DNA of 64,000 bases from Verrucomicrobiota bacterium (GTDB lineage: Bacteria > Verrucomicrobiota > Verrucomicrobiia > Limisphaerales > J093). The DNA lies in the NCBI GenBank assembly GCA_022710935.1, contig JAKLFY010000009.1:1-64000 (forward strand), in the 5' to 3' direction. The notes beneath the pieces are model-generated. The model did no database searches, was not told where the DNA came from, and worked only from the letters and a program-made list of their open reading frames with translations. Positions within the stretch are counted from its first letter, which is position 1, and the number at the start of each line of letters is the position of its first letter. Made by a program: the position numbers and the translations under genes. Below, piece by piece: positions 3,132 through 24,885 of this stretch.

Positions 3132-3587
3132 TTAACCTCGCTCGGCGCCAAACAGCTCCTGCATCCGCTGCTGACGGAACTCGAAGATCCGCTCGACGTC
3201 CCGGCGCACAAACAGCCAATTGATCAAGACGCCGCCGCGTGGCCGGTAACGGATGCAGTCGGCGCAGAGCGTTCCGCCATCCCGTTCCTCGAATGTGTGC
3301 GTGTGATGCCACAGGGTGTAAGGCCCTCGCACCTGGACGTCCACGAAACGATGCGGCGGCTGCCACTCGGCGATCTCCGTGCGCCAGCGCAACGAGACGC
3401 CATGCACGCGGATGCGGTAGTCAATGAGCGTGCCAACGCGCATGACGATCGGCGCGGGCGTGAGGACCTCGAAGTTCAGCCACGGCGGCGTTAGCGCTTC
3501 GAGGTTTCGCGCCTCCGCGAAAAAGGGGAAGACGTCGTCCCTCGGGCGGGGCAGCCACAGCTCGGTCTGCAGTGAGTATTCCTTCAT
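3132..3587 (-). CDS. SRPBCC (START-like) family protein
   Basis: A 151-residue protein with the SRPBCC ligand-binding fold, of the type annotated as cell-division inhibitor or epimerase-associated protein. Visible hallmarks are PRPRDDVFPFFAEARNLEAL at the N-terminus, a central TLIDYRIRVHGVSLRWRTEI, and FEFRQQRMQELF at the C-terminal helix. The function is unproven; such proteins bind small hydrophobic ligands. The ATG at 3587 is four bases after the stop of the MerR gene, so the two are probably co-transcribed and translationally coupled. An upstream start at 3692 would overlap the MerR gene by about 100 bp and is rejected. Next downstream is the SDR remnant. Confidence 0.72.
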   Translation of the reverse strand: MKEYSLQTELWLPRPRDDVFPFFAEARNLEALTPPWLNFEVLTPAPIVMRVGTLIDYRIRVHGVSLRWRTEIAEWQPPHRFVDVQVRGPYTLWHHTHTFEERDGGTLCADCIRYRPRGGVLINWLFVRRDVERIFEFRQQRMQELFGAERG

Positions 3588-3591
3588 CGTC

Positions 3592-4536
3592 TCATCGCTT
3601 TGCCATTTCTGAAGGTCGTCGCAGATGGTCGAGGGCCTGGCCCAGTTGCGCCAGGTCCTCCGCAAGAATGGCGCCGAGCTGCCGCAGGACATTGCTGTAC
3701 GCAGGCATGGCGCGACCGCCCACCAGCAGCGCAGTCTGGGCCGGCAAGGACTCGCGCAGCAGCGTCAACTCACTTGGCAGGTTCGCGTCGTCTTCAGGAT
3801 AGACGAGGCTCAACGCCACCACGCGCGCCTTCTTCTGGCGGGCGGCCCCAGCGATTTCCAAGGCGGGCAGACTGGCGCCGAGATTTGTAACCTGCCAGCC
3901 CAGGTTGGCGGCCGTGGCGCCAACGAGCAGCGCGCCCATTTCATGAAGTTGTCCCGACGGCGTTGCCACCACCATGGAGGGCGCACCTTCGTTGCCACCG
4001 AAGGGCTTCCCGAGGCCGGCCAGAAACGAGCGAATGTGGCCCGTGGCGAAGTGCTCGTGGGCAGCGGTGATCTTGCCGTCCCGCCAGAGGTCGCCGAGCG
4101 TCTGCACCAAAGGAGCAACCAACCGGTGGAGCACGCCCTGGACGCCCAGCGCCGTCGCGGCGCGCCTGAGCGTGTCGTCCAAGGCGCGCGCGTCGAGGGA
4201 ATGCACGGATGTCAGGCACTCATCGAGCGGCGCCTCGGGTGCGGGCGTGGCTGCGGATGAACCCGGGGCCTCGATTCTCAGGCCGACGGTGTTGGCGGCC
4301 AGGGCCCGGAGCTTGTCGTTCGAGAGCCGCGCCACCTGGCTGATGTTGTGTCCCGCTCGTGTGGCATCCCGCAGCAGGCTCAAGCGCTCGATGTCGCCAT
4401 CGGAGTAGAGCCTGTGGTTGGCCGGCGTGCGCGTCGGATCCACCGCGCGGTAGCGCTGCTCCCAGATCCGGATGACATGGGTGCTCAAGCCGGTCAAACG
4501 CGCGGCCAGGTGAATGGGATGATGGGCCTCAGTCAT
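3592..4536 (-). CDS. CarH/LitR-like B12-dependent MerR photoreceptor repressor
   Basis: A 314-residue MerR regulator with a cobalamin-binding half. Residues 7-75 form the MerR helix-turn-helix (IRIWEQRYRAVDPTRTPANH). Residues 105-175 form the helical light-sensing domain and contain W151 followed nine residues later by E161-H162, the W-x9-EH signature of CarH. Residues about 185-305 form the Rossmann-like B12 domain, with H198 in the HxxG motif (GQLHEMG) that supplies the lower cobalt ligand. In known CarH proteins, adenosylcobalamin promotes a DNA-bound tetramer in the dark and light breaks it. All these residues are kept, so B12-dependent light sensing is likely. It would regulate the SRPBCC gene and perhaps the CIA30 gene across the intergenic region. 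Confidence 0.85.
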   Translation of the reverse strand: MTEAHHPIHLAARLTGLSTHVIRIWEQRYRAVDPTRTPANHRLYSDGDIERLSLLRDATRAGHNISQVARLSNDKLRALAANTVGLRIEAPGSSAATPAPEAPLDECLTSVHSLDARALDDTLRRAATALGVQGVLHRLVAPLVQTLGDLWRDGKITAAHEHFATGHIRSFLAGLGKPFGGNEGAPSMVVATPSGQLHEMGALLVGATAANLGWQVTNLGASLPALEIAGAARQKKARVVALSLVYPEDDANLPSELTLLRESLPAQTALLVGGRAMPAYSNVLRQLGAILAEDLAQLGQALDHLRRPSEMAKR

Positions 4537-4540
4537 ATCT

Positions 4541-4560
4541 TACACAACATTTCTACATTA
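4541..4560 (-). promoter_or_regulatory. Candidate CarH autoregulatory site just upstream of its start
   Basis: TACACAACAT (4541-4550) is followed by TTCTACATTA (4551-4560). The two TACA cores are 13 bp apart and lie 5-24 bp before the ATG of the CarH-like gene. CarH operators in Thermus are built from TACA-containing repeats, so autoregulation is plausible. The spacing differs from the ideal 11 bp, so this is a weaker candidate than the site at 4763. Confidence 0.35.
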
Positions 4561-4744
4561 CCACGCCCCGACGCAACAAAAAAAGCAAACCTGTTGCATC
4601 GTGGATCGCCTGGCTGAGGGCAGTCAGGCCTGAGCCGGAGCACACCCTGGCGACACATTTTCACCATGCTGCGCGAGGATTCAGGTCCCATCGACCTGAC
4701 CTGAAAAGTTGAACATGTTGCCACAACAACACGGCTACCGGCCC

Positions 4745-4783
4745 TTGACATTCCACATGTACTACACAATCATTACACAATTG
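4745..4783 (+). promoter_or_regulatory. TTGACA box with two TACACAAT repeats 11 bp apart (candidate CarH operator)
   Basis: A consensus -35 hexamer TTGACA (4745-4750) is followed by TACACAAT at 4763-4770 and again at 4774-4781, start-to-start distance exactly 11 bp. Known CarH operators use 11-bp direct repeats with a TACA core, each read by one MerR domain. The repeats would overlap the -10 region, so a bound tetramer would block transcription in the dark. The transcript would run rightwards toward the CIA30 gene, 380 bp away. The -10 box itself is not clear. Confidence 0.5.
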
Positions 4784-4927
4784 AGTTAGCCGATGGTCGG
4801 CAGTCGAACGTGAGAACAAAACACAAACCGTGACACATCGCATGAAATCAAATCGCATCGTCACCGTGGCGGCCATCTGCCCTGTTGTCACCGGCACAGT
4901 CCAACGGGGTGACTCTCGTGATCAATG

Positions 4928-4995
4928 GACAGAGAGTGACACACCCCCTACGTGCACAAGGCGTTCAGACTTCGCAAGAGGACGGCGATGCGGGT
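4928..4995 (+). repeat. Dispersed 68-bp repeat, copy 1
   Basis: This stretch aligns without gaps to 25012-25079 at 58 of 68 positions, beginning GACAGAGAGTG and ending ATGCGGGT. Both copies lie in intergenic DNA upstream of a plus-strand gene for a secreted protein. Mismatches do not fall preferentially on any codon position, so a shared peptide is unlikely. It may be a small mobile or structured element, or a shared leader. Confidence 0.6.
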
Positions 4996-5163
4996 TGGAA
5001 AAGCAAAACCGCACCCGGTTCGAGAGTCAGAGAAATGCAACACGCTGTTCATATGGAAGAACACCTTCAGGAGCGACGGGATCCTCTTGGTTCCCTTTCC
5101 GAGCGCGGTTTTGCCAACCAGCCCGGCTACGGTTCCTCGCGTAGCGTATGAAGTAACCGGTTT

Positions 5164-5763
5164 ATGAGCAATCGCCTCCAATACTCATTTCTTGCCTTTG
5201 CCACCTGTTTTGCCATGCACCTGACAGCAGCCCAGAATCAGCCGGTGGTGCCCATCGCAGAGCCTGCAAGGTCCGCGGACTGGCAGGTGATCAATGACGA
5301 TGTGATGGGTGGGATCTCGACCAGTCAGATCCGCGTCTCGACAAACGGAACACTGGTCTTTGAGGGGACAGTCTCACTTGAAAACAACGGCGGCTTCGCT
5401 TCAGTACGTTCCGTCCCGGTGCTGTGCGACCTGACGGGTTGCGATGCCTTCGTCGTGCGCGTTCGGGGCGACGGGCGACGATACAAATTCACCGTGCGGA
5501 CAGAGCGCAGGTTGGACAGCGCGATCTACCAGGCCGAGTTTGTGACCAAGGCGGGCGAATGGCAGGAGCATCGACTGGCTTTCAAGGAATTCGTGCCGAC
5601 CTTTCGAGGCCGGGTCCTATCGGGCAGACCGTTGCTGGACCCGGCAAAGATCGCCTCGGTAGGATTCCTGATCTCTGACAAGCAAGCTGGTCCCTTCCGG
5701 CTGGAAATCGACTGGATCAAAGGACTGCGCCCCACTGGTCGAGGGCAACAGGATCCGCGTTGA
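5164..5763 (+). CDS. CIA30 family secreted protein
   Basis: A 199-residue protein with an N-terminal export signal (hydrophobic stretch FLAFATCFAMHLTAAQ), then a single CIA30 domain (complex I intermediate-associated protein 30 family, a galactose-binding-like beta sandwich). The family core is clear: DWQVINDDVMGGISTSQIRV, then GGFASVRSVP and the closing FRLEIDWIKGL. Bacterial CIA30 proteins are of unknown function and are sometimes found in light-responsive clusters with CarH/LitR regulators, photolyases and SRPBCC proteins, which fits this context. The last twelve or so residues after DWIKGL are not family-like: they are an out-of-frame reading of the beta-helix fragment that follows, so the natural C-terminus appears replaced at a deletion junction. 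Confidence 0.78.
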   Translation: MSNRLQYSFLAFATCFAMHLTAAQNQPVVPIAEPARSADWQVINDDVMGGISTSQIRVSTNGTLVFEGTVSLENNGGFASVRSVPVLCDLTGCDAFVVRVRGDGRRYKFTVRTERRLDSAIYQAEFVTKAGEWQEHRLAFKEFVPTFRGRVLSGRPLLDPAKIASVGFLISDKQAGPFRLEIDWIKGLRPTGRGQQDPR

Positions 5764-5986
5764 CCGCGCCGCCGCCAGTGAACCGGCGATTCACGTGACC
5801 GCCTGCCGCACCAACGGTCCTTTCCCATGCCGCAACGTGCGTATCCTGCACAACACCGTCTCCCGCGGCATTGTCACCAGCGGTTCGCCCGGCGAGAACA
5901 ACGTGGCCCGCGGCAACAGGGTTGGGAAATCGCCCCCTGACGGCCCAATGATTTGTTTTCGGCCTGGACGACTCGACCGCCACTGA
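5735..5986 (+). pseudogene. C-terminal fragment of a right-handed beta-helix protein
   Basis: In a frame different from the CIA30 gene it overlaps, this stretch reads VEGNRIRVD, NVRILHNTVSRGIVTSG and ENNVARGNRV, which is parallel beta-helix (pectate lyase/NosD-like) repeat character. It has no start and is fused directly to the end of the CIA30 gene. It looks like the surviving tail of a secreted polysaccharide-processing protein whose front was deleted. Confidence 0.5.
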
Positions 5987-6023
5987 CCCACGGGAAAGCC
6001 AACGGACGGCGTTCCCGGGTGGC

Positions 6024-8507
6024 TCAATACGATGTCAACTTGAAGAACCGACTGCTGCTCCCCGGCGCGTCGACGCTCATCAGCACCGAGTCGTTGGGCA
6101 CATTCGCCAGCCGCTGCTCGAACGACCATGTCCGTAAGTCGGGCGAGGAGTAGAGCGAGCAGGTGCGCCCGGCGGTATGTCGACCGATAATCCGCACGTG
6201 GGTGTCGTGTTCGATGCTGAGTGACGGCATACGACCGCTCCAGAAGCGGGCGACGTACGGAACCCGTGAGTTGCTGGCGCCCACAAAGATCCCTGCGGCC
6301 AGCATCGAGTCATCCGCGAACATCGCCAAGGCTTGCACCTCGTTGGTGAAGCCTCGAGCCGGCCGGCACTCGGCTGCGAACTCCGGGTCAACCCGTCCAT
6401 TCGATCCCAGCCGCGCCAGCCCAGGCTGGGGTGAGAGGTCGAACGTGGTAAATGCGCCGCCGACCAACATCCCTCCGTCTGGCAAGGACAACAGACATTC
6501 GATCGGGCCGTCCGGTCCGGCGCCCGGGTCGAACGAAGGGTCCACTTCACCGTTTGCAGACAGCCGCGCGACTCCGTGACGCGTTTCCCCGCCGATCGTG
6601 TTGAAGCTTCCACCGACGAGGACGTTCCCGGCCGCGTCGGTGCCCAGGCACAGAATCGCGCCGTTCGCCTGAATGGTCTGATTGAAGGCGGGATCGAGCG
6701 ATCCGTTCTGGGTCAGGGCATGGAGTCTCCCGGTCGGATGCGGTGGAACAGTTGCGTCGGGTCCCGCGACGAGCAGGCGGAGATCCGGATGCGAGAGAGC
6801 GGCCGAGACAGCCGACAAGGGCACGGGATTCGACGGGAATTCGCCATCCAGGGTGCCGTCGGGGAGCAAGCGGACCAAACCGCTTCTGGGCGCATCATTG
6901 AAGGATTGGAACGAGCCCGCCAGAACGATTTTCCCGTCGGCGACCTCGAAGACCTTCGCGATCGGACCATCGGCGCCAGTGCCGCCCGAATTGAACGCCG
7001 TGTCATACTGGCCGTCGGGGCGCAAACGAGCAACTCGTCCCGCCGGCTTGCCCAGGAAGTTCGTGAAGGTCCCTGCAATCAGCAGTCCGCCGTCGGCCTG
7101 CTCAGCCAGCGAGAGCACCCCGCCGCTCCCGTCGGTGCCCGCACCTGCACGCGAGGCCAGGACCCCGGTGGCCTTGAGGTAAGCTACGCCATCGACGGGC
7201 CACCCTTCGTAGGTCGGGAACGACCCGCCGACAACCAGCGTTCCGTTGGCGCGGCTGAGGACTGTCGAAAACGCCGTGCCCAGCTCGGCCCCGGTATTGA
7301 AACTCGGATCGACTGCCCCAGTCCGATCCATCCGGGCGAACCCCGACTTTGCGAGGGGCCCGACGCGTCGGAACATGCCGCCTATGACGACTTGTCCCTC
7401 GCCCTGGAGACAAAGGCCGTAAACGACCGGCGGATTCACACGTTGGGGCACGAACGTTTCATCGAGGGTGCCATCGGGAAGCAGGCGCGCGATGCCGGTG
7501 CGCGGGACGCCATTGACGGCCGTGAACGGACCTGCAATCCAAATCCCGCCTTCGTCGTCGATCGCGAGGTCGTTCACCCAGTCCCCAGTCACAATCGGTG
7601 CAAAGCCTTCATCCAGGCTTCCATCCGGCTTCAGCCGCGCCAGATGTGCGCGGGACTGCCCGGCGACTTTCTGGAAATTGCCGCCCACGACGATCATCCC
7701 GTCGGCCTGCAACCCAGCGCGATACCCCCAGTAGCCGGTCATCGACGGCGCAGTGAATCCGGGGTCGATATTGCCGTCGGCGTCGAACCGGACGAGCGGC
7801 TGCGTCCAAGGTCTGTTGCCATACACCGCGAGGAGTCTGCCGTCCGGTTGCCGCAGGACATCGTACACGGGACCGTTCAGTGCGTTGGTGAAGGTGGCAT
7901 CGGCGCTGCCGTCTTCGAGAAGTCGCACCAGTCCTCCCTCGAAGCCCACCAGGATTCGCCCGGTGGGCAGGCGCAGGATTCGGTTGACAGCACCCCCCTT
8001 CAACATCGAGAACTCCGGGTCAAGGTCACCGCTCGGGAGCAGCCTCATCAAACTGAAGAGCCCGGGGCGGCCACTGATGTACAATTCTCCGGCAACCAGG
8101 GCATTGCCGCTCGCATCAACGGCGATGTCGTTGACCACGGTGCCCCAGAAAGGGGGGCGAAACGTGGCATCGTAAGCGCCGGTCGCTGCGATTCGCGCCA
8201 GGCCGGGGTTCTTTTCCCCGTTGATCCTGGACCAAAAACCTCCCGCAAAGATGGAGCCGTCAGATCCAGCAACCACGTGTCCGACGGTGTTGTCCACCCC
8301 GGGATAAGTCACTTGAGTGTTGAAATTGGTGTGGATGTCGCCCGGGCGTTGCGCGGTGAGAGTTGCCGCGGCCAGCCACATTGCCACGGCGACTTGCGCC
8401 AAAATCCCCCAATTCCGCGCCACGCCTCTGGCCGTCCGGGAAGCGGGAGTGGGCTCGAGAAGGCGCGCATTGAACAAACACCACCGAGTGGGTTTGTCGG
8501 TTGACAT
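6024..8507 (-). CDS. Secreted delta-60 repeat beta-propeller-like protein
   Basis: About 827 residues. After an N-terminal signal (near residue 35, LAQVAVAMWLAAATLTAQ), the protein is a long array of roughly 50-60-residue delta-60 repeats, recognisable by the recurring patterns LARLxPDGSLDExF and VVGGxFxxVxG from residue 60 to about 760. A short C-terminal segment (YSSPDLRTWSFEQRLANVP) resembles the terminal module found in many secreted verrucomicrobial proteins. Delta-60 proteins are thought to fold as propellers and act in surface binding; no enzymatic motif is seen. The ATG at 8507 is chosen because the signal peptide follows within 50 residues; an upstream in-frame start at 8642 adds basic residues only. 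Confidence 0.8.
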   Translation of the reverse strand: MSTDKPTRWCLFNARLLEPTPASRTARGVARNWGILAQVAVAMWLAAATLTAQRPGDIHTNFNTQVTYPGVDNTVGHVVAGSDGSIFAGGFWSRINGEKNPGLARIAATGAYDATFRPPFWGTVVNDIAVDASGNALVAGELYISGRPGLFSLMRLLPSGDLDPEFSMLKGGAVNRILRLPTGRILVGFEGGLVRLLEDGSADATFTNALNGPVYDVLRQPDGRLLAVYGNRPWTQPLVRFDADGNIDPGFTAPSMTGYWGYRAGLQADGMIVVGGNFQKVAGQSRAHLARLKPDGSLDEGFAPIVTGDWVNDLAIDDEGGIWIAGPFTAVNGVPRTGIARLLPDGTLDETFVPQRVNPPVVYGLCLQGEGQVVIGGMFRRVGPLAKSGFARMDRTGAVDPSFNTGAELGTAFSTVLSRANGTLVVGGSFPTYEGWPVDGVAYLKATGVLASRAGAGTDGSGGVLSLAEQADGGLLIAGTFTNFLGKPAGRVARLRPDGQYDTAFNSGGTGADGPIAKVFEVADGKIVLAGSFQSFNDAPRSGLVRLLPDGTLDGEFPSNPVPLSAVSAALSHPDLRLLVAGPDATVPPHPTGRLHALTQNGSLDPAFNQTIQANGAILCLGTDAAGNVLVGGSFNTIGGETRHGVARLSANGEVDPSFDPGAGPDGPIECLLSLPDGGMLVGGAFTTFDLSPQPGLARLGSNGRVDPEFAAECRPARGFTNEVQALAMFADDSMLAAGIFVGASNSRVPYVARFWSGRMPSLSIEHDTHVRIIGRHTAGRTCSLYSSPDLRTWSFEQRLANVPNDSVLMSVDAPGSSSRFFKLTSY

Positions 8508-14427: not shown

Positions 14428-15168
14428 TCAAGCCGTCGCGCGCAGGCACGCCGGGCCGGCAAAACTGCGCAATCCGAAGACGAGGTAGTCTTTTGCTTTC
14501 ACCGCGAGCGCGGCCTTGCGTTTCTGCCAATCAGGCATGGCGCGGCTGAGGGCGGCCCAGAATTCCGGACCGTGGTGGCGCTCGTGCAGGTGAACGAGTT
14601 CATGAGCGATGACGTAATCCGCCAGGGGAACAGGTAGCTGGAGCACCTTCCAATTGAAATAGACGACCCCGTTCCGACCGCACGATCCCCAGCGAAAACC
14701 CAAATCACGAACTTCCACACGGCGCGGTGTGCTGGAGGTGCGGGCCGAGAGGGTTTCGGCTCGGCGCCTCAGCCAGTCTGCTCCGGCGGCGATATACCAT
14801 TTCCGGAAATGCGCCTCGGCGGGCCGCGCGTCATGCCGCAAGGTGAATCGTGTGCCGTCGAACTGGAGCGGTTGGGCTTGTCGCTCCACCAGCTTGAGCC
14901 GGTAGCGCCGCCCGAGATAGGAAAAGGCTTCGCCGGAGACGTATTCCGGCGCCTGCAGCTTTGGCAACGCCTCCTCCTTGAGCGCGAGTTTGCGATGCAC
15001 CCACAAGAGTTTCCTGCCGACCCAGCGGGAAAGCTCGTCGGCGGAGGTTCCCGTGGGGACGTGGGCAACCAACTCGCCAGCGCGGTCCACAGTCAGACCG
15101 AGGCTCTTTCGGCGCTCACTGCGCCGGACTTCAAACAGGAGGCCGCCAAGTTGGAGCGTCTCGGTCAT
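14428..15168 (-). CDS. YgjP-like zinc metallopeptidase (DUF45/M48)
   Basis: A 246-residue protein with the zinc peptidase motif HELVHLHERHHGPEFW near residue 190 (HExxH plus a downstream His), preceded by WGSCGRNGVVYFNWKVLQLP. This is the YgjP/DUF45 (SprT-like) family. Such genes very often sit immediately downstream of hsdR, as here: its ATG overlaps the hsdR stop codon. Its role in restriction is unknown; proteolytic control of HsdR or DNA-protein crosslink repair have been suggested for relatives. The coupling to hsdR argues that it is co-expressed with it. Confidence 0.85.
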   Translation of the reverse strand: MTETLQLGGLLFEVRRSERRKSLGLTVDRAGELVAHVPTGTSADELSRWVGRKLLWVHRKLALKEEALPKLQAPEYVSGEAFSYLGRRYRLKLVERQAQPLQFDGTRFTLRHDARPAEAHFRKWYIAAGADWLRRRAETLSARTSSTPRRVEVRDLGFRWGSCGRNGVVYFNWKVLQLPVPLADYVIAHELVHLHERHHGPEFWAALSRAMPDWQKRKAALAVKAKDYLVFGLRSFAGPACLRATA

Positions 15169-18100
15169 GCGCGGGTCAGGTTCTCGTGATTCTCCCTGGC
15201 CAGCGCGACAAGCCGTTGCGCGAGGTCACGTTCGCCCCCCGGACGGCACACCCCGGCCTTGTTCAGGTCGCGCACCAGTGCCCTGGTCAGCAGTTCCCGC
15301 ATCGCGTCGTTTTTCCAGAAACCCACTTTACGAACTTCCTGACGAATGCGCTCCACCATGTCCAACGTCGTTTTGATGGACTGCTCCCGCTGCGCGGCGG
15401 TCAGTTGGCGTCCCTTGCTGCATTCTTCCAGCACCAAACGCACGAAGGGCACTTGGACCTTGGGATCGAGGTCGGGGAAATCACTCCGGTCGCCCTGACG
15501 CAGCTCATCAATGAACTTCTTCAATTCCCGCTCCAGCGCGTTCCAATCGTCTTTGAACCGTTGGAGAATTTCCTCCAACCGCTCGCTCATTTTGCGGGCG
15601 TAGGCGGGATTCTGATTCGAGAAGCCGATGATGTGATAGCGCGCGGCGTGCTGCATTTGCGCCGCACGGGCGCGACTACTGCCCTGGGCTTGCAGCACCT
15701 TCTCGAACTCCGCGTCCGTGATGGCTGTGGGCGGAATCTTCGGGTCAACGCCACGCGCGGAAACATGCGCGTTGATCAGGGACTTCACCTTCTCGGCCAC
15801 GCCGAAAAGGTCCAGGGCCGGGTCGCGATACAAGTTGGCGGCGACCTTGTTGATGAAGCCGAGCAGCTTCGCGTCGCGGAAGACATCACCGGGCACTTCC
15901 GGCCGATGTTCCAGCAGACCGAGCATTTCGTAGAATGACCGGAGCTTGTTGATGAAATCGGCGCGAATCTTGAGGTCTTCGAGCAACTGCACGCACGCAT
16001 CCACCTGGCCCTGAAGATCGGTGATGCCGCGATCCGTGAAGACGGCGATGGCCCGCGCCCGACGGTCGAGCAGCTTGGGCAGTTCGACGCTGATGTTGAT
16101 CAGCGCGCCCTCGATGTCCTCGCCATCGTAATCCGTCAGCGCCTCGTTCAAGTGGCGGGCCACGCCGATGTAGTCCACGACGTAGCCACATTTCTTCGGG
16201 CCGGACGTGCGGTTGACGCGCGCGATGGCCTGCAACAAGTCGTGCGCCACGATCTTCCGGTCGAGGTAAAGCACCTGCTCGACGGGCGCGTCGAAACCGG
16301 TCAGCAGCATATTCATCACCACCAGAATCGAAAGCGGGTCGGTCTTGTCGGTCTTGGCGGGGGCGAACCTCCGCTTGAACCGTTTGATGTATTCCTCCTG
16401 CTTCGCCTTGTCCGCCCAATCCCACCACGATTCCGGGTCGTTGTGATTGCCGGAGAACACGGCGGCGGTTTCCAGGGCGCGGAGCTTCGGCAGTTGTGGG
16501 TGGGTGCGCACGAGGAAACGGGTTTTCGCGTCGAGCTTCTCCACTTCATCATCCGGCAAGGTCAGCGTTGCGGCGGGCACGGCCTCCAATTCCGCAATCA
16601 GTTCGTTGCGCCCCTGCTCCAGCTTGTCGAGGTAGGTCATGCACGCCTGCCGGCTCGTCGCGACCACCTGCGCCTTGAATCCCTCGGGGAGCACCACGCT
16701 GGCAAAGTGCCGGACCAGATCGCGCGCCTTTTGCTCGATGAGCAGGGGCGCTTCCATCACGTCGCCCTCGGTGGCGTACTTGGCCTTGATGACGGCGAGT
16801 TCCTCGGGCGTGTAGTCGCGGAACATGTCCTCGAACACCGCGTCGAGGCTGGGCGCATCCTTCACGATGCCGTCTGCCGTCCGGCCTTCGTAGAGGATCG
16901 GCACCGTCGCGCCGTCGAGTTCGGCGTCTTGCAGGATGTATTTGTCGATGAAGTCGCCGAAGATCTCGCGCGTCTCCGTCTTTTCCTTGCTCAAGATGGG
17001 CGTGCCGGTAAAGCCAATGATGGCGGCGTTGGGCAGCGCCTTGCGCAGATTGCGGTGCAGCGTGCGCGTGTGCGAGCGGTGCGCCTCGTCCACGAGCACC
17101 AGAATCTCCTCGGACTCGTTCAGCACGGGAAACTCCTCAAACCGGATGTTCTCGGTGAACGTGACGGTCTTCTCGACGACCTCCTCGTGCCGGCCAGGCC
17201 TTTTCTCTTTGCGCACGATGGTCATGGCGACCTTGTCGCCCGCCTTCTCGCCCGGTTGCGGAAGCACTTCCAAGCCCTTGCCGTCCGACTTTCCACCGAC
17301 GGGCTGATACTTTTGCAGCATCGCCATGACGATGTCCGGCGTGCGCTCGCTCAAGAGCCGCTGGGTCAAGGCCGTGGGCGACTCGCGCGACTTCAAATCC
17401 TCGTCCGTCGGGCGCACCGCCTCCCCGCTCAACTGCGCCGTCGCGCCAAGCTGGGCCTGCAAGTCGGTGCGGTCGGTGACAACGACAACTTTGAACCGGT
17501 TCAGGCGAGGCATCATCCGCATCTTGCGGACGAGGAACACCATGCTGAGGCTCTTGCCTGAGCCCTGCGTGTGCCAGACAATGCCGCCGCGTTCATCGCG
17601 TTCAGCACCCTGCGCCTTGGTGCGGCCCTCCGCCAATTTCGTGACCGCCTTGTGGATGGCGCGGAACTGCTGGTAACGCGCCACCACCTTGCGGGTCTTG
17701 CCGTCCACCTGCTGGAACACCGTGAAGTTGCGGATGAGGTCGAGCAGATGCGCGGGGCGCAACATGCCGGCGGCGAGAATCTGCTGGCTCTGGAGGGTTG
17801 CGCCCTGACCGCGCAAGGCGACGGGCCGCTGCTCCGGTTTGCGGAAGAAGAGCGGCGTGCCAGTGCGGTCGCCCCGTTCCGGGCCGACGGCGGCCAGTTC
17901 CTGCGCGGCTTCCGCTTCGTCCGCCGACCGGTCCAACACCCCGAGTTCCTGCGCCACGGTGCTCAACGGCACGGGGCTGGTGTCCGCCCATTCCAGATAC
18001 GCCTCTGGCGGCGCGCCAATGGTGGCGGCGCGGGACTCGAAGAAATCGCTTGCGATGAGCAACTGGTTGGTGTGAAAGAGCCGCTCCACGCCCTCGTTGT

Positions 18101-18695
18101 CGGTGTAGAGCGTGGGCCAGAGTTCGCGGCGCTGGTTGGAGTAGCGCAGCAATTGATTGATGGCCTCCTGCAACGGGTTCTCGATGCCCGGACTCTTGAA
18201 CTCTGCCACGCCGAGTGGAATGCCGTTCACGAACAACACTGCATCCGGGATGACGTGACCGCGCCCGCTGGTCAGCTCCACCTTGAACTGGTTGATGACG
18301 AGGAAATCGTTGTTGGCCGGATTCTCGAAATCAATGAACCGCACCGGTTGGTTGCGCCCGAAGTTCCAATCCGGCAGGCCGTCAATCTCCGTGCCCTTGA
18401 GCAGGAGCTTGGTGGCCGACTCGTTGATTTCCATCAGTCGATGGCCCTCGGCCTTTTCGAGCTTCTCGATGATGCGGCGGATGCGGTCGTCATCCAGCCA
18501 GGCCTGGCCGTCGCGCAGGTTGAGCTTGCGAAGCGCGGCGGCGAGCCGGCCTTGGAGCAACACCTCGCGGAAGTTGGCGCGCTCAGTGAAATCGGGCACG
18601 TCGGTGTCGCCCTCGATCCACTGCCAGCCCATCGCCTTGAGCTGCTCACAGAACGGGTGCTCGACCAGATCGTATTCCCATTGGATTTCGCTCAT
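15165..18695 (-). CDS. hsdR: Type I restriction endonuclease R subunit
   Basis: A 1176-residue HsdR, the subunit that translocates and cuts unmethylated DNA. The N-terminal PD-(D/E)xK nuclease is intact (D151 in VIPDAVLFVNG, E165 and K167 in GVAEFKSP). The motor follows: Walker A HTQGSGKS at 385-392 and DEAH in LVDEAHRSHTRTLH, with later helicase motifs such as NMLLTGFDAP. The C-terminal helical region that docks on HsdM is present. About 45 extra residues (254-300, rich in E/A/R/G) interrupt the usual sequence before QSQQILAAGMLRPAHL. I chose the ATG at 18695 because three duplicated copies of this 5' end all begin at the same ATG; a TTG at 18704 is the alternative. No complete hsdM or hsdS is present in this window. 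Confidence 0.93.
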   Translation of the reverse strand: MSEIQWEYDLVEHPFCEQLKAMGWQWIEGDTDVPDFTERANFREVLLQGRLAAALRKLNLRDGQAWLDDDRIRRIIEKLEKAEGHRLMEINESATKLLLKGTEIDGLPDWNFGRNQPVRFIDFENPANNDFLVINQFKVELTSGRGHVIPDAVLFVNGIPLGVAEFKSPGIENPLQEAINQLLRYSNQRRELWPTLYTDNEGVERLFHTNQLLIASDFFESRAATIGAPPEAYLEWADTSPVPLSTVAQELGVLDRSADEAEAAQELAAVGPERGDRTGTPLFFRKPEQRPVALRGQGATLQSQQILAAGMLRPAHLLDLIRNFTVFQQVDGKTRKVVARYQQFRAIHKAVTKLAEGRTKAQGAERDERGGIVWHTQGSGKSLSMVFLVRKMRMMPRLNRFKVVVVTDRTDLQAQLGATAQLSGEAVRPTDEDLKSRESPTALTQRLLSERTPDIVMAMLQKYQPVGGKSDGKGLEVLPQPGEKAGDKVAMTIVRKEKRPGRHEEVVEKTVTFTENIRFEEFPVLNESEEILVLVDEAHRSHTRTLHRNLRKALPNAAIIGFTGTPILSKEKTETREIFGDFIDKYILQDAELDGATVPILYEGRTADGIVKDAPSLDAVFEDMFRDYTPEELAVIKAKYATEGDVMEAPLLIEQKARDLVRHFASVVLPEGFKAQVVATSRQACMTYLDKLEQGRNELIAELEAVPAATLTLPDDEVEKLDAKTRFLVRTHPQLPKLRALETAAVFSGNHNDPESWWDWADKAKQEEYIKRFKRRFAPAKTDKTDPLSILVVMNMLLTGFDAPVEQVLYLDRKIVAHDLLQAIARVNRTSGPKKCGYVVDYIGVARHLNEALTDYDGEDIEGALINISVELPKLLDRRARAIAVFTDRGITDLQGQVDACVQLLEDLKIRADFINKLRSFYEMLGLLEHRPEVPGDVFRDAKLLGFINKVAANLYRDPALDLFGVAEKVKSLINAHVSARGVDPKIPPTAITDAEFEKVLQAQGSSRARAAQMQHAARYHIIGFSNQNPAYARKMSERLEEILQRFKDDWNALERELKKFIDELRQGDRSDFPDLDPKVQVPFVRLVLEECSKGRQLTAAQREQSIKTTLDMVERIRQEVRKVGFWKNDAMRELLTRALVRDLNKAGVCRPGGERDLAQRLVALARENHENLTRA
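18609..18695 (-). repeat. hsdR 5'-end repeat, copy d (start of intact hsdR)
   Basis: These first 29 codons of hsdR are the parent-like version of a sequence that recurs at 20945-21027, 23206-23280 and 24366-24451, all on the minus strand. Copies d and c match at 78 of 87 nucleotides counted from the ATG. The shared peptide core is QWEYDLVE(H/R)PF followed by AMGWQWI. Confidence 0.85.
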
Positions 18696-18708
18696 TTGCG
18701 GCAATGGT

Positions 18709-18752
18709 CGGCCAAGTGTGGGTCAAGTGTCGGTCCACTCTCCGTCAAATCG
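18709..18752 (+). repeat. Four tandem 11-bp repeats upstream of hsdR
   Basis: Reading the plus strand, the units are CGGCCAAGTGT, GGGTCAAGTGT, CGGTCCACTCT and CCGTCAAATCG, consensus about SGGTCAAGTGT. The array ends 14 bp before the hsdR ATG (minus-strand gene). The 11-bp period places each unit on the same face of the helix, which suggests a protein-binding operator. A second array of the same consensus and orientation lies upstream of Fic2. Confidence 0.65.
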
Positions 18753-18771: not shown

Positions 18772-19176
18772 TCATCCAGCATCGAGATCCAGTTGCTGCA
18801 CGACTCCAGCCACTCCGCGCATGTGGCTGTCCCGGTGGACCAATACCGCCTGTCGTGTGCAGGCCGCCGCAGCGATGAGCGCATCCACCAACGGCAACCG
18901 TGTCGTTGCGGAGACGCTGAGCCGGTCGCTTTCATGGGCCACTTTTTGATCCACTGGAACCACCTCATCCACCGCCTGCAGGTAGTCGGAAATCTGCGTC
19001 CAAGCTTCTTCCGGCGAGGCGCCCAAATCACGAAGTCGCCGGGCCAGTTCGGCCAGGCTCACGCTGCAGATCAGCAACGCGCCTTCTTCACGCTCGAAAA
19101 GCTGCTGCACCCGCTCCGCGCCAGGCTCGCCGCGCACATGAGCCAGCAGCGCCGAAGTATCGAAGATGTAATTCAT
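18772..19176 (-). CDS. vapC: VapC-type PIN-domain toxin
   Basis: A 134-residue PIN ribonuclease. The expected acidic residues are seen: D6 in YIFDTSALLAHVRG, a conserved Glu in SVSLAELARR, an Asp in RLPLVDALIAAAA, and the late acidic position in VLVHRDSHMRGV. VapC toxins cleave tRNA or rRNA and stop growth. The gene overlaps the upstream VapB-like gene by four bases. It lies between Fic1 and hsdR in the same direction, so it is inserted inside the restriction locus. Confidence 0.88.
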   Translation of the reverse strand: MNYIFDTSALLAHVRGEPGAERVQQLFEREEGALLICSVSLAELARRLRDLGASPEEAWTQISDYLQAVDEVVPVDQKVAHESDRLSVSATTRLPLVDALIAAAACTRQAVLVHRDSHMRGVAGVVQQLDLDAG

Positions 19177-19436
19177 GCTGGCTTCTCTCCCTGATCTTCG
19201 CGGGCTCGTTCTTCAATCAACTCCCTCACGGCATCGCGTCCAGGCGACCACCTTCTGGCACTGCCCATCAAGCGCCGGGCCAGTTCGCCCCGCTTGGGAA
19301 CAACCCGGACCCGGATCTCCGTCTGGCTTCCGGCAACTGATTCCCAGTCCAGTTGGCAACCCGGGGCAATGCCAAGCTGTCTGGAAAGTGCAGCCGGTAT
19401 GGTAACCATGTTCTTCGTGGTAACCGTCGTTCTCAT
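19173..19436 (-). CDS. vapB: VapB/AbrB-type antitoxin
   Basis: An 87-residue antitoxin. The AbrB-like DNA-binding fold is at residues 1-50 (TTVTTKNMVTIPAALSRQLG), and the toxin-binding tail (ARRWSPGRDAVRELIEERAR) follows. I place the start at the ATG at 19436; an open frame continues upstream to 19679 but that part is the remnant of another gene. It should neutralise VapC and repress the operon. Confidence 0.82.
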   Translation of the reverse strand: MRTTVTTKNMVTIPAALSRQLGIAPGCQLDWESVAGSQTEIRVRVVPKRGELARRLMGSARRWSPGRDAVRELIEERAREDQGEKPA

Positions 19437-19505
19437 GGAACATTGACTAGTCCGGGAAGCGCGCGGAGTCAAGGCTTCCGGCGACACCATCTTCCGCCTC
19501 CCAGC

Positions 19506-19679
19506 CGAAACCACCGGAATCGCTTTGGGCTCCGGCTTCACGACCAACTGCTCGAACGTCAGCCTCAGCAACACGCCGATGCGCAGGAGCTTGTCTGGCT
19601 GGGGGAACGATTCCCCTGAGAGCCACTTGGACAATGCGGGCAATCGGAGGGTTCTCGGCTGCGCTATTTTCGACGTCAT
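19506..19679 (-). pseudogene. XRE-type regulator fragment
   Basis: Residues such as LPALSKWLSGESFPQPDKLL and RIGVLLRLTFEQLVVKPEPK match the recognition-helix end of an XRE helix-turn-helix protein of the kind often fused to or paired with an ImmA/IrrE metallopeptidase. The first helices and everything after about residue 58 are missing. It runs in frame into the VapB gene, so the junction is probably a deletion. I judge it non-functional. Confidence 0.42.
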
Positions 19680-19727: not shown

Positions 19728-20873
19728 TCAAGGCTTCTTGGGCCTTGCGCTATGCAGGACGTCATGGAGCAGTTTCGCCCACGTCTCCGTAAGCAGGTAG
19801 TTCCTGACCCTCTGCGCGCCCGGTTTCGCCGGTTGGACGAAACCATCGTCACGCCACTTGTCCAGCCACTCCCGGGCGGTCGTTGCGGAAACTCCGAACC
19901 ACTCCACCACATCAGATGGCGCGAAAGCCAGAATCGGCGGCTTCTCGTTAAGCCCGCGCACCACCAGGCGCGTGAGCAGTTGTTGCTGGACGCGACGCAG
20001 CCTCTCCCACGGTGGGGCCGGCCGGTTCTCGGGATCGTAAAGCGCCACCGCCTGCTTGCGCAAATCCTCCGCGGCTCGTGCCATTGTCCCCAGAAAATAC
20101 TCCAGCCAAGGCGTGTGATCGGGATCGTGGCGCCCCTCGTAAAAATCCACCGGCAGCCCCATTTGCAGGCTGTCGTAGTAGGCCTGTAGATTCGCCGTGT
20201 AATGCTCTTCCAGCGACAGGAAGCCGCGCATGTCGTAGCCGCCGCGCCACAGTTCCGTGGTCGCCAGCGCGCGGGCGGTGCGGCCGTTGCCGTCGCCAAA
20301 CGGGTGGATGCTCACGAAGCGATGCGCGAGCAGACCGGCACGGACCGGCCCGGGCAAGGCGGCCACCGCCTGGCTTTGCCCCCATTCCACCCATTCGCGC
20401 ATCAATCTGGGAACGTCCGCCGGTTTCGGCGGTCCGTAGTCAATCCGGCGCGTGGCGGCATCCACCATCGGACATTCGCCCACGCGGTACGCGCTGCGCG
20501 TGCCACGCCGGCCATGCCCCCGCACCAGCACGATGCAATGCAACTCGCAGACGAATTCCTCCGATAGGCGCCGCTGCGCCTCCAACTGCTCCTCAATCCA
20601 CTCCAGCGCGCGCCAGTAATTCCGCACCTCCTGCTGCATCTCGGTCTGGGTCCGACCCACGGCCACGACCGCCTGGCCCACCTCGGTGCTGTTCAGCGTA
20701 TTGCCTTCGATCCGGGTGGAGTTGCGGGTGGCGCGTTGCCGGGCCGCCTGACGAAGCCACAGCACGCGATCCGGTGGCAACGGGAGCACGTCAACGACTG
20801 CCCGCGCGGACTCGATGACGCCAAGGTTGCGCACCATCGAGTGCGTATAGCTAAAACGAGGCTGGAATGGCAT
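19728..20873 (-). CDS. Class II Fic-domain AMP-transferase-like protein (Fic1)
   Basis: A 381-residue Fic protein. The complete active-site motif HPFGDGNGRT is at residues 190-199, and the N-terminal inhibitory helix motif S52-x3-E56-G57 (NSTRIEGNTL) marks class II, self-inhibited Fic enzymes that transfer AMP from ATP to protein hydroxyls. The C-terminal part carries a winged-helix (FAPSDVVEWFGVSATTAREW), typical of the stand-alone Fic/DUF4172-like group. The ATG at 20873 follows GGGAAAGGGAACCTC, a good ribosome-binding site. It is preceded by a small ORF made of an hsdR 5' tag (c). It is likely part of the restriction island as an accessory toxin or regulator. Confidence 0.87.
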   Translation of the reverse strand: MPFQPRFSYTHSMVRNLGVIESARAVVDVLPLPPDRVLWLRQAARQRATRNSTRIEGNTLNSTEVGQAVVAVGRTQTEMQQEVRNYWRALEWIEEQLEAQRRLSEEFVCELHCIVLVRGHGRRGTRSAYRVGECPMVDAATRRIDYGPPKPADVPRLMREWVEWGQSQAVAALPGPVRAGLLAHRFVSIHPFGDGNGRTARALATTELWRGGYDMRGFLSLEEHYTANLQAYYDSLQMGLPVDFYEGRHDPDHTPWLEYFLGTMARAAEDLRKQAVALYDPENRPAPPWERLRRVQQQLLTRLVVRGLNEKPPILAFAPSDVVEWFGVSATTAREWLDKWRDDGFVQPAKPGAQRVRNYLLTETWAKLLHDVLHSARPKKP

Positions 20874-20944
20874 GAGGTTCCCTTTCCCGTCAGGCGGTTG
20901 CCGGCTTGTGGCCCCGGAAATTGACCAGCGCAAAGCTGCCGCCC

Positions 20945-21027
20945 GTGATCCACTGCCAGCCCATCGCCTGGAGCTGCTCGCAGAACGGGCGCTCGACCAG
21001 ATCGTATTCCCACTGGATACTGCTCAT
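20945..21027 (-). repeat. hsdR 5'-end repeat, copy c, with a 45-codon ORF
   Basis: The ATG at 21027 overlaps the stop of the HsdM-N/nitrilase gene (ATGA). The frame reads MSSIQWEYDLVERPFC and on to AMGWQWI, matching HsdR residues 1-27, then departs and stops at 20890, 16 bp before the Fic1 start. It is too short to fold as a nuclease. It could serve only as a coupling leader peptide for Fic1 or be a recombination scar. Confidence 0.75.
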
Positions 21028-22844
21028 GCGGGATTTGCGGGTGGGGTTTTCCAAACACCCTCTGGGTCGCCCGGTGTAGCAATACTTGGTCGACCAATCA
21101 GTTTCTGGGGTGTGATCTCGGCGAATGCAACGGTTGCTTGCGGCTGCCCGTGGAGGTGCAGCACCTGCCGGTCGTAAGAATGTCTGAATGGCATGTAGAA
21201 ACTACTGCCTCCATACTGCCCGTTGTTCACGACGATCATGCCCTGATACATGTGGTAGTGCAGCCCCTCGGACATCCGGTCGAATGTGCCGACATCGCGA
21301 TTCAGCGCGCAAACGACATAAAGATCACTTCTCGATTTCAAATCGGCCGCCAGCGCCAGATCCGTAGCATCGTAGCACACGGACGCACTGAGCCTAAGTG
21401 AAGCAACCGCAGGGTTGCTATCCCATCGATACTCAACGATCCACTGAGCTGGACGAAATCCCACAGGCCGCGGAGTGAATCGACCCTCCTCTTGTGTCAG
21501 ATGTTCCTTGCCCTGTTCGACGAAGCGGACGTTGAATCCACTCGCCGCGCGCCACTCTGGAATGGCCCAGACACAACTGTTGATCAATCGTGACCCAGGC
21601 CCAGGTCCCGCTGGATGATAGACCTGCCCGAACAGCACGATGCACTTGTAGGTGCGAACGAAAGGCACGATGAGCGGTCGAACATCGAAAGGGTGAACGG
21701 CCAGCTCGGGAAAGACCAACAGGTCAAGAATCCGGCAGTCTTGCCGATGCTGATCGCGGTGCGTTTCCCGAACCTCAAGCGTTTGAACGACCGCTTCCAG
21801 CAGCGCCGCTAGATGCCGACGTTGGCGGAGCCTGAATGGCGCATCCGCAACCAACTCCGGATCGCTGAGCCTCGCAACATAGTCGTCCATGTTTGGAATC
21901 ACCGATTGCACGATTCCCACCCGCAGCGGGCGCGTCCAGACCTTGGGTGGCGTGTCTGGCCACGGAGCCGTTTGTTCCAAGAACGGCAGTGTAGTCGCCT
22001 TTCCGCGGGACTTCTCGAGAGAACTCAATCGGGTGCTCAGTCGATCTGCCCACTCCGCCAACGGAACAATCGGGGTCGCCAAACCGGACCCCGGCCACCG
22101 CAACAGGTCGAACAGGAAATCCTCGGTCCACGATGAGATGGGAATCCAAGGCGGACCGAATGCAGCCCGTCCTTGAAATGTGGAGTACCTTTGCCGCTCC
22201 CAGTGAGAGACCGGAAGGCTGTATCTTGGCCCCCGCACCGGACTGTTCCGGCTTTCCGCGCTGAAGAAATCGACGGAGCCACGCAGTGCAAACCGCAAGA
22301 TTAGTCCGACCTGAAACCGGCGTTTGTCCTCAGCCGTGTCGCACCAACCGGGAACTGTGAACAGGTGGGCGCCTTTGGGCAGCGCAGCCGTTGGTTTCAC
22401 GGAGCCGGGCTTCAAGCGGCCGAACTCCGAACCGTTTGAGGCCGAGACTTCGCAAGCAATCTGCCAGGGCGTGACAACTTCAGGCCACTCGTCAGCGGGC
22501 AAGGCACCCAACGCCGTGTCGAGCACGCTGCCGTAGGAGACGGAGGCGTCGTTGAGCTTGTCCTGGAGGTGGTTCCAGCGGGCGCGCTCGGGGACAAAGA
22601 AGCCGTCATAGTAATCCGGATTCTCGCCGTAGGCTTTTTCGGCTTGTTTAAGTTCCATACCTTGCTCGACCTTGCCGCCGACGATCTTCGCGTGCTCGGC
22701 GTCAAACACGTCCGAGCAACGCTTCAGGAAGAGCATCCCGAAGATGTAGTCCTTGTAGGTGGCCGCATCGAGGCCCTCCTGCCGCAGCCGGTCGGCGGCG
22801 GAATACAGGTGGCGTTCGAGTTTGGCGAGGGAAAGGCGGGGCAT
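21024..22844 (-). CDS. Chimera: HsdM N-terminal domain fused to RT-associated nitrilase-like domain
   Basis: A 606-residue ORF with two unrelated halves. Residues 5-115 are the N-terminal helical domain of a type I methyltransferase (AATYKDYIFGMLFLKRCSDV, then YGENPDYYDGFFVPERARW); the catalytic methylase domain is absent. From about residue 118 the protein changes to a segment (RRFQVGLILRFALRGSVDFF, FGPPWIPISSWTEDFLFDLL) and a nitrilase-superfamily domain at 305-578 with a complete triad: E380 (LVFPELAVHP), K446 (EQGKEHL) and C490 (SASVCYDATD). To my recollection the second half resembles the C-terminal part of defence reverse transcriptase-nitrilase (DRT1/UG) proteins without the RT domain. 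The junction is in frame. It may be an inert fusion or a new accessory protein. Confidence 0.75.
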   Translation of the reverse strand: MPRLSLAKLERHLYSAADRLRQEGLDAATYKDYIFGMLFLKRCSDVFDAEHAKIVGGKVEQGMELKQAEKAYGENPDYYDGFFVPERARWNHLQDKLNDASVSYGSVLDTALGALPADEWPEVVTPWQIACEVSASNGSEFGRLKPGSVKPTAALPKGAHLFTVPGWCDTAEDKRRFQVGLILRFALRGSVDFFSAESRNSPVRGPRYSLPVSHWERQRYSTFQGRAAFGPPWIPISSWTEDFLFDLLRWPGSGLATPIVPLAEWADRLSTRLSSLEKSRGKATTLPFLEQTAPWPDTPPKVWTRPLRVGIVQSVIPNMDDYVARLSDPELVADAPFRLRQRRHLAALLEAVVQTLEVRETHRDQHRQDCRILDLLVFPELAVHPFDVRPLIVPFVRTYKCIVLFGQVYHPAGPGPGSRLINSCVWAIPEWRAASGFNVRFVEQGKEHLTQEEGRFTPRPVGFRPAQWIVEYRWDSNPAVASLRLSASVCYDATDLALAADLKSRSDLYVVCALNRDVGTFDRMSEGLHYHMYQGMIVVNNGQYGGSSFYMPFRHSYDRQVLHLHGQPQATVAFAEITPQKLIGRPSIATPGDPEGVWKTPPANPA

Positions 22845-22968: not shown

Positions 22969-23280
22969 TCATGAGAAAGAGGGTGTTGCTGGTCTGAGGT
23001 GCGCCTCGCTAGAGCCGGTTCCGGGGTGGGCCGCCTTCGATCGCGGTGTCCAGACAAAGACGCTTGCTGGGCAACCGTTGGCGTTATTGTAGCGGCGTTC
23101 ATGGCAACGTCGCGGCATTCTGCACTGAAAAACGGAAGTTTGCGACACAATAACCATCACACAAAAGCCATCAGACCGCGCCGGGATGGGCGGCACCCAG
23201 GAGTCCTGCCAGCCCATCGCCTTGAGCGGCTCGGAGAACGGGCGCTCGACCAGGTCGTATTCCCATTGGAATTTGCTCAT
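22969..23280 (-). other. ORF starting with hsdR 5' tag (copy b), otherwise unrecognised
   Basis: The ATG at 23280 lies 7 bp after the Fic2 stop codon. Residues 1-25 match HsdR (KFQWEYDLVERPF, AMGWQ); the next 78 residues are unlike HsdR or any family I know, and the frame stops at 22969. From there to the chimera start at 22844 no gene is visible. I treat the tag as real and the rest of the ORF as doubtful. Confidence 0.35.
23206..23280 (-). repeat. hsdR 5'-end repeat, copy b
   Basis: About 75 bp nearly identical to the start of hsdR, located directly after the Fic2 stop. The similarity ends at GGCTGGCAG, one or two codons earlier than in copies a, c and d. Confidence 0.75.
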
Positions 23281-23287
23281 GGCCGGT

Positions 23288-24289
23288 TCATTGCAGGACG
23301 TAGCGACCGGTCTTCAGCGTGCCCACCCGCTTCACCAGTCCGGCTTTCACGAGCGGACGCAGCAAATCCATCGCGCCCTGCTTGGACACCTTCAGCGCCG
23401 CCCAGAGTTCGGCTGGCGTCATTCCCCCGCCCCTGCCGAGCAGCTTGAGCAACTGTTCCTGCCGCGGACGCAGCACCACCTTCTCGCGCGCCGAGGTGAC
23501 GGAAAGCTGCCCCATCCGCTCCCACACCCGCTCCAGCGTCTGCTGCAAACCCTCCGCGCAATACTCGAGCCACGAGGTCAGGTCGTCGCCCTCGCGCCGC
23601 ACCGCGTCCAGCGCCGCGTAGTAGCGCGGACGGTCCTCCCAGTAAAACTCGTCCACCGCGAAGATGTGATGCGAATCGAAGCCGCGCCGGTAAAGCTCCC
23701 ACAACGCCAGCGCCCGGCCCGTCCGCCCGTTGCCGTCGGCGAACGGATGAATCGTCTCGAAGCGATGATGCACGATGGCCGAACTCAAGACCGGAGAGAG
23801 GCCCGGCGCATCCTTGTTCCACCACTCCAGCAGTTCGAACATCAGGCCCGACACGTCCTCCGGCGGTGGCGGCACGAATGGGCCCACCCGCACCCGGATC
23901 GTGCGGTAGCGGCCCGCCTCGCCCTGGTCCATCACCGCGCCGGCGATGATGGCATGCAACCGGAAAGTGTCCACGTGCGTCAGCCGCTTCTTCGCAGCGT
24001 GCTTCTCGACATGCCGGAGGGCGGCGAAATAATTCAGCACCTCGCGCCGTGCCCGCTCCGGGGCGGCCACCGTTGCGCCTTCCTCCAGCGCGCGGACTTC
24101 CTCCAGCGTCAGGGGGTTGCCCTCGATGGCGGTCGAACTGTGTGTGTTGCGCGCCCGCGTGTCCTTTTGGAGCGCCGGAATCCACGGCACTTGCAACGCC
24201 GCACCCTGAATCCGCTCCCGCAATGCCGCGATGCCCTCCACCCGCGCCAGCAGGCCGGGCGTGATGGTGAATTGGGGCTGGTAACTCAT
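23288..24289 (-). CDS. Class II Fic-domain protein (Fic2)
   Basis: A 333-residue Fic protein with HPFADGNGRT at residues 181-190 and the inhibitory motif S52-x3-E56-G57 (SSTAIEGNPL), both complete, so it should be an active, self-inhibited AMP-transferase-type enzyme. A C-terminal winged helix (GGGMTPAELWAALKVSKQGA) may bind DNA or regulate the enzyme. It shares architecture with Fic1 but the two are far from identical, so they are not a recent duplication. Upstream lie an 11-bp repeat array and hsdR tag a; tag b follows its stop by 7 bp. Confidence 0.88.
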   Translation of the reverse strand: MSYQPQFTITPGLLARVEGIAALRERIQGAALQVPWIPALQKDTRARNTHSSTAIEGNPLTLEEVRALEEGATVAAPERARREVLNYFAALRHVEKHAAKKRLTHVDTFRLHAIIAGAVMDQGEAGRYRTIRVRVGPFVPPPPEDVSGLMFELLEWWNKDAPGLSPVLSSAIVHHRFETIHPFADGNGRTGRALALWELYRRGFDSHHIFAVDEFYWEDRPRYYAALDAVRREGDDLTSWLEYCAEGLQQTLERVWERMGQLSVTSAREKVVLRPRQEQLLKLLGRGGGMTPAELWAALKVSKQGAMDLLRPLVKAGLVKRVGTLKTGRYVLQ

Positions 24290-24307: not shown

Positions 24308-24351
24308 GGGTCAATCCTGGGTCAAGCGTCGGTCAAGTATCAGTCAAGTTG
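24308..24351 (+). repeat. Four tandem 11-bp repeats upstream of Fic2
   Basis: Units on the plus strand are GGGTCAATCCT, GGGTCAAGCGT, CGGTCAAGTAT and CAGTCAAGTTG, matching the array upstream of hsdR in consensus, period, copy number and orientation. The array ends 19 bp before the Fic2 ATG (minus-strand gene). It probably binds a regulator that controls both hsdR and Fic2, or is the mark of a shared insertion event. Confidence 0.7.
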
Positions 24352-24365
24352 CCACACTGTGCCCA

Positions 24366-24451
24366 CCCTCGATCCACTGCCAGCCCATCGCGTTGAGCTG
24401 CTCGCGGAACGGGCGCTCGGCCAGGTCGCATTCCCAATGGACTGTGCGCAT
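24366..24451 (-). repeat. hsdR 5'-end repeat, copy a, with a 35-codon ORF
   Basis: The ATG at 24451 follows the stop of the AAA-ATPase remnant by 5 bp. The frame reads MRTVHWECDLAERPF and AMGWQWIEGG, matching the start of HsdR, then stops at 24344 near the edge of the 11-bp repeat array. It is the most diverged of the four copies and thus perhaps the oldest. Confidence 0.72.
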
Positions 24452-24456
24452 TCGCT

Positions 24457-24885
24457 TTACGCTTCGGCCTCCTGTCGGCGGATGAAATCCCCGAGCAGGG
24501 GCACGGCGAAGGAGTAGCGCCCGTGCCGGTTCTTATACAGCAATCCGTACTCCATCAGTTTGCCGAGAATCTGGTTCACATGGCCTGCGCTGAACGGTTT
24601 CGCCAGCTTTTGCGATTGCTCGACAATCTCCTGCACGGTGAACTCGACGTCGCACTTGGGCAGTGCCGCCACCAAAGCGAGCAACTGCCGCTGGCGATCC
24701 GTCACCCGATTCCAGCGACCGGCGAAGAAATCCGAATCCAGCTTGCGCACCGTCTGTTTGACTGTCACCACCGGGTTCACGGCGCCGCTGGCCTTCTGCT
24801 GCAAATACGTGTCGAACATCTCGCGGCAGAGAAACTGGATGAAATAGGGATAGCCGCCGGAGTGCCGGATGATCTCCGTCGCCGA
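24457..24885 (-). pseudogene. C-terminal fragment of an AAA-type ATPase
   Basis: The frame reads RHSGGYPYFIQFLCREMFDT and then a winged-helix domain (VNQILGKLMEYGLLYKNRHG) ending RRQEAEA. This is the C-terminal lid plus winged helix of an ORC/STAND-like ATP-binding protein; the Walker A and B region is gone. The frame is closed by a stop at 24898, just upstream of the recognisable part. The internal ATG at 24819 could still give a 120-residue winged-helix protein, but I judge it a remnant. Confidence 0.55.

Follow-up and report, generated by a model that had tools for sequence, protein, structure and literature searches.

The gene at 21024-22844 of the window, the whole 64,000-nucleotide stretch of DNA analyzed here, fuses the start of the type I RM gene hsdM to the end of a gene for DRT1, a known antiviral RT-nitrilase of the UG1 type. 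The fusion ORF is, with high probability, the scar of one in-frame deletion, probably inactive, in a decayed type I RM operon that is filled with cargo genes. The same locus contains three short hsdR 5' stubs, each located immediately 3' of the end of a cargo gene. We describe the chimera and its origin, and we discuss how the cargo may have reached the hsdR start.

Architecture of the HsdM–DRT1 chimera

The chimeric ORF lies on the minus strand, starts with an ATG at 22844 and runs through 606 codons without an internal stop. A plus-strand reading of the same interval contains many stops and was rejected. The fusion is present once in the assembly. Codons 1-115 (22500-22844, minus) constitute an hsdM 5' fragment that is 82-84% identical to intact HsdM of the same subfamily (82-84% to the N-termini of L004 and L005 and 84% to that of G046). 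The Pfam HsdM_N match (E=5e-19) spans residues 9-108 and covers no more than positions 1-90 of the 135-position profile, and the N6-methylase domain of HsdM is absent from the fusion. The remainder (21024-22499, minus) is a DRT1 3' fragment, encoding the C-terminal 40% of the protein, that consists of the end of the helical-repeat domain and the nitrilase domain. It corresponds to residues 767-1259 of the DRT1 protein of L003, a Verrucomicrobiia MAG, with 69% identity. Residues 124-604 align with positions 726-1175 of the 1176-position PADLOC Drt1a profile (E=5e-127), the RTasNitrilase profile is also matched and the solved DRT1 structure (PDB 9yfd) is recognized with E=2.6e-46. The matches of both halves are far beyond chance. 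The preliminary description was correct in its coordinates, in the open frame, in the in-frame HsdM-like N-terminus and in likening the second half to a DRT1-type RT-nitrilase protein minus the RT. It also placed the start of the second protein at about residue 118. The second half is indeed a different protein, but the junction is a few residues earlier, at L115|P116 (window 22500/22499). Identity to the HsdM relatives extends through the ALGAL motif that ends with L115, and the sequence from P116 onward aligns from residue 767 of the L003 DRT1.

The nitrilase half is homologous to DRT1 along its whole length. Its catalytic triad is complete, with E380, K446 and C490 exactly where they had been described, and the C-terminal lid is kept as K599, T600 and A603 in a KTPPA motif (599-603). 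These lid residues are equivalent to K1219, T1220 and A1223 of DRT1, of which K1219 and A1223 are essential (PMC13275509). However, unlike DRT1, the fusion has an HsdM stub in place of the RT and of most of the helical-repeat domain. An RT domain with a YxDD motif is missing. The Drt1a match begins at profile position 726, after the RT; in the L003 DRT1, YVDD is found at residue 314, upstream of the portion retained in the fusion. A scan for promoters and terminators upstream of the fusion ORF gave nothing above chance.

Probable origin of the chimera by deletion

What arrangement of genes could have given rise to the chimera? The gene order in L003 is hsdM, hsdS, DRT1, a sugar-isomerase-like gene, further cargo, hsdR and YgjP. 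The L003 hsdM is frameshifted at its 5' end, and the full-length DRT1 gene (1259 aa) overlaps hsdS. In L003 coordinates, the fusion corresponds to a loss of nucleotides 2172-8024, a 5853-bp segment that is divisible by 3, with an identical junction. Because hsdM, hsdS and DRT1 are plain neighbours within one operon in L003, one deletion suffices to generate the ORF. Another DRT1 gene is found downstream of an hsdM gene in G465, with more cargo behind it, and these two arrangements indicate that DRT1 can be cargo of a type I RM operon in these bacteria. DRT1 also occurs on plasmids, and in four plasmid records it is not adjacent to annotated type I RM genes. Before they were joined, the fusion partners had probably been neighbours. 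We propose that a single in-frame deletion of ~5.85 kb in an hsdM–hsdS–DRT1–hsdR operon would have created the fusion ORF. Such a deletion would have taken hsdM from codon 116 on, the whole of hsdS and DRT1 codons 1-766, which encode the RT together with most of the helical repeats.

The surroundings of the fusion are those of a broken operon. hsdM, hsdS and hsdR are not found together at the locus, where hsdR is intact and hsdS has no match. The genome elsewhere yielded no cognate HsdM, and the only other HsdM found is a distant one on another contig, with 40% identity over 197 residues. The break falls inside each source domain, at profile position 90 of HsdM_N and within the helical domain of DRT1. 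The neighbours are clipped as well, including an ATPase reduced to its C-terminus, an HTH fragment fused to an antitoxin and the three hsdR stubs. Checks proposed in the preliminary description were also carried out. No second genome with an HsdM–DRT1 fusion was found in the genome contig collection, in 146 relatives or in one scan of viral contigs, and a search of 388 genomes from the phylum with the Drt1a profile revealed no further case. The missing RT is absent within 10 kb, and the sole Drt1a match reported for the source genome is the fusion itself, which starts after the RT. Since the fusion was seen in no other genome searched, both domains are cut and no cognate hsdM was found, an accidental product, the second of the two origins initially considered, is more likely than a new effector.

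A chimeric ORF could also be produced by the assembly, if the contig merged sequence from two strains or two loci, so that no real cell had the fusion. The assembly consists of 259 contigs, which leaves room for such an error. However, the assembly contains no further copy of either half to serve as a repeat, both flanks are consistent with a single continuous RM cargo series and the frame is maintained through the junction, and we regard an artefact as very improbable.

Damaged genes were also observed in other genomes. A DRT1 remnant in G016 (L100, G016:C76, 9988-11689) has an intact nitrilase frame and has lost its RT, with a frameshift and an IS transposase on its 5' side; it is a second RT-less DRT1 that arose via a different event. 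In G337 (L101, G337:C48, 7887-8189, minus), hsdR codons 1-57 are joined in frame to a YgjP fragment, forming another deletion chimera in a locus of this kind.

Functional prospects of the chimera

In DRT1, the active nitrilase is assembled by DNA adducts that the RT has to make, and the HsdM piece lacks the length for a methylase; the chimera is therefore probably inactive. Without the RT and the greater part of the helical repeats, the fusion cannot carry out the protein-primed DNA synthesis on which DRT1 assembly depends. RT-dead DRT1 is monomeric and non-toxic and provides no defence (PMC13275509). An AlphaFold2 model of the fusion, based on a shallow alignment, has a mean pLDDT of 52, with values below 50 for residues 116-258 and 269-301. 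From residue ~307 on, strands and helices alternate in the model in a nitrilase-like manner, which is weak evidence given the shallow alignment.

Decay after the fusion is not visible, given that the 606 codons are open, 62 of the 63 nitrilase-half columns that are invariant in other DRT1s are kept (the lone change is I to V) and the HsdM_N dN is not above that between intact relatives. A dS-based selection test on the DRT1 half was dropped because synonymous sites are saturated. This preserved state could be explained by a recent event or by a retained function. In the latter case, the chimera would be a working new effector, in which the N-terminal helices of HsdM replace the RT in oligomerization or sensing and, as the preliminary description had suggested, dock the nitrilase on partners of the HsdR or HsdS type. 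The open frame, the intact triad and lid residues, the low dN in both halves and the coupling of the fusion stop to an hsdR start by ATGA are compatible with such an effector, and intra-tetramer contacts in the DRT1 filament are made via the nitrilase domain only (PMC13275509). However, the fusion was found once, it combines a truncated HsdM_N with a DRT1 that is cut mid-domain, it has neither an hsdS beside it nor a cognate HsdM found in the genome and RT-dead DRT1 is inert (PMC13275509). An effector is thus improbable, and the docking proposal is not supported, one deletion between probable former neighbours being enough to explain the ORF. The chimera is most likely a recent, dead scar.

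hsdR stubs and cargo genes in the window

The window contains four minus-strand copies of a repeat family, D1, that is the hsdR 5' end (18610-18722, 20942-21054, 23195-23307 and 24366-24478). One copy contains the real hsdR start at 18695, and the other three contain stub starts at 21027, 23280 and 24451. Stub C (20938-21027, minus; about 30 codons) matches an HMM of HsdR N-termini with E=1e-15, and its ATG overlaps the fusion stop codon in ATGA. Stub B (23206-23280, minus; 25 codons; E=8e-10), which lies in a D1 copy, directly follows the stop of Fic gene A. Stub A (24350-24451, minus; about 34 codons; E=4e-12) directly follows the truncated AAA ATPase gene. An ORF at 22969-23280 was rejected as a gene because it is stub B with read-through. 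Compared with 11 full-length HsdR N-termini, the stubs contain 1, 2 and 6 residues that none of these has, a count that rises away from hsdR, with stub A the most diverged. Judging from the sequences of these three stubs, it is only suggestive that older stubs lie further out from hsdR.

The genes between and around the stubs are all located on the minus strand. The series ends with a full-length hsdR (15165-18695; Pfam HSDR_N, SWI2_SNF2 and T1R_D3-like) whose product is 83% identical to the L003 HsdR. It is followed by a YgjP-like metallopeptidase gene (14428-15168; Pfam E=4e-50), the usual downstream partner of this hsdR, which is also found 3' of hsdR in L003, L006 and L017. The fusion is flanked by two cargo Fic genes, in line with its initial description as part of a defence island. 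Fic gene A (23288-24289) is SoFic-like (Pfam Fic E=4e-19; PADLOC SoFic), and Fic gene B (19728-20873) matches Pfam Fic with E=6e-15. The AAA ATPase cargo gene is a C-terminal fragment (24457-24819); its full-length version, on which Pfam AAA_16 is found, precedes hsdR in G005. The remaining cargo (18772-19679) comprises an HTH fragment with a MazE-like antitoxin (Pfam MazE_antitoxin, weak) and then a PIN toxin (Pfam PIN). The HTH fragment, which is 59% identical to proteins of G013 and G108, covers ~55 residues and is joined to the antitoxin in an ORF at 19173-19679 upstream of the PIN gene; this ORF is a probable further junction product.

Imperfect tandem TTGAC repeats with ~11-nt spacing are located between stub A and Fic gene A (24350-24290, minus). 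A weaker version precedes the window hsdR, and in G013 and G108 a pair of TTGAC motifs is found ahead of the HTH gene. The repeats were rejected as cassette ends because they occur at these places only.

hsdR stubs in related genomes

An hsdR start that ends early right behind the end of a cargo gene occurs three times in the window, twice in G005 and once each in G046, G013 and G108, the G108 stub being cut on its upstream side by the contig end. Stubs are present in five of the seven genomes of the order that have a clear copy of this hsdR start, whereas most copies elsewhere in the phylum are full-length. The cargo preceding the stubs in the other genomes of the order is PIN, ImmA-like/PIN, AAA ATPase or Fic. 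G005, of the same family, carries an array (L074, G005:C2, 1593-5650) of an hsdS remnant, a PIN-like gene (assigned by eye only), a stub, XRE-ImmA-like and PIN genes, a stub, an AAA ATPase gene and an internally deleted hsdR. The two outer stubs of this array share L10R and E17A, which were never seen in full-length HsdRs. The order in G046 is hsdM, hsdS, an AbiEii-type ATPase gene, a 153-aa gene, a stub, Fic B fragments and a full hsdR. In both G013 and G108, the stub is followed by the same HTH gene. L006 and L017 have no cargo, and a single cargo block is found in L007 (RloC-like AAA_13), L103 (schlafen/AlbA_2) and L015 (GmrSD).

The end of a cargo gene and an hsdR start are kept as one unit between genera. 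The ATPase/hsdR-start junction of the window has 82.8% DNA identity over 470 bp to that of G005 (L074), and the Fic A/hsdR-start junction has 89% identity over 160 bp to that of G013. A fixed, site-specific stub breakpoint was rejected because the breakpoints lie at codons 25-34 in the window and at codons 35-60 in other genomes.

Proposed arrival of cargo at the hsdR start

The stubs behind cargo genes, in the window and in further genomes of the order, suggest serial insertion at the hsdR 5' end, by which the gap between hsdS and hsdR seems to have been filled. We propose that the locus was once a type I RM operon, now decayed, and that defence and toxin-antitoxin genes may have entered it successively at the hsdR start, with every insertion leaving a short hsdR 5' stub. 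The incoming DNA would bring a cargo gene with an hsdR allele attached, and it would recombine with the resident hsdR in the sequence common to the two alleles. The left joint would fall illegitimately near the resident hsdR start, so that a full hsdR would be rebuilt and the old 5' end stranded. Homologous integration of circles that carry the hsdR start would leave an equal footprint.

Alternatively, former hsdR copies may simply have been deleted at random and have left the stubs as remnants, with nothing special about the hsdR 5' end. This reading is doubtful, although a real possibility. Simple in-frame deletions that retain the hsdR start do occur, in the G337 chimera and in the last unit of G005, and many genes at these loci are clipped. 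However, the 5' stubs of the window, G005, G046 and G013 are located between two cargo genes without an adjoining hsdR 3' remnant and break off at codons 25-54 of 1176, and the same junctions of cargo and hsdR 5' end recur in different genera (ATPase, 83%/470 bp; FicA, 89%/160 bp).

In a stronger version of serial insertion, cargo genes that bring a homologous hsdR start with them would repeatedly use the first ~30-60 codons of hsdR as a landing site, entering by homologous or site-specific recombination, rebuilding hsdR each time and leaving excisable repeats in a polar cassette array. We consider this rather unlikely. No integrase or transposase was detected among the scanned cargo proteins. 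We claim no dedicated mechanism because plain deletions also occur, as in G337, where hsdR codon 57 is joined to YgjP, and in the last G005 unit.

Two known loci provide a comparison. In the EPEC RRDM island, the defence gene DarTG2 is located between hsdS and hsdR at a site that has been called a potential recombination hotspot (PMC12255303). The loci share cargo between hsdS and hsdR and a metallopeptidase gene in the neighbourhood, but several cargos are stacked here with an hsdR 5' stub behind each. The pneumococcal tvr locus (SpnIV) is a type I RM locus that shuffles hsdS via a recombinase and circular intermediates (PMC6265443). It likewise contains direct repeats, but those described here are hsdR starts, and none of the cargo genes was recognized as a recombinase gene. 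In the papers open to search, which comprise the lesser part of the subscription literature, hsdR 5' stubs were not found described as footprints of insertion.

Significance

The fusion illustrates how defence islands yield plausible-looking chimeras that are probably dead, which calls for caution in domain-fusion mining. The hsdR stubs matter more than the fusion and are the part that deserves follow-up. Defence genes between hsdS and hsdR are known, and the stubs look like physical footprints of their repeated arrivals. The stubs make it testable whether hsdR starts act as recombination sites that swap defence cargo. If the hsdR start is a landing site, its direct repeats would allow cargo to be excised and swapped in a polar array of defence genes.
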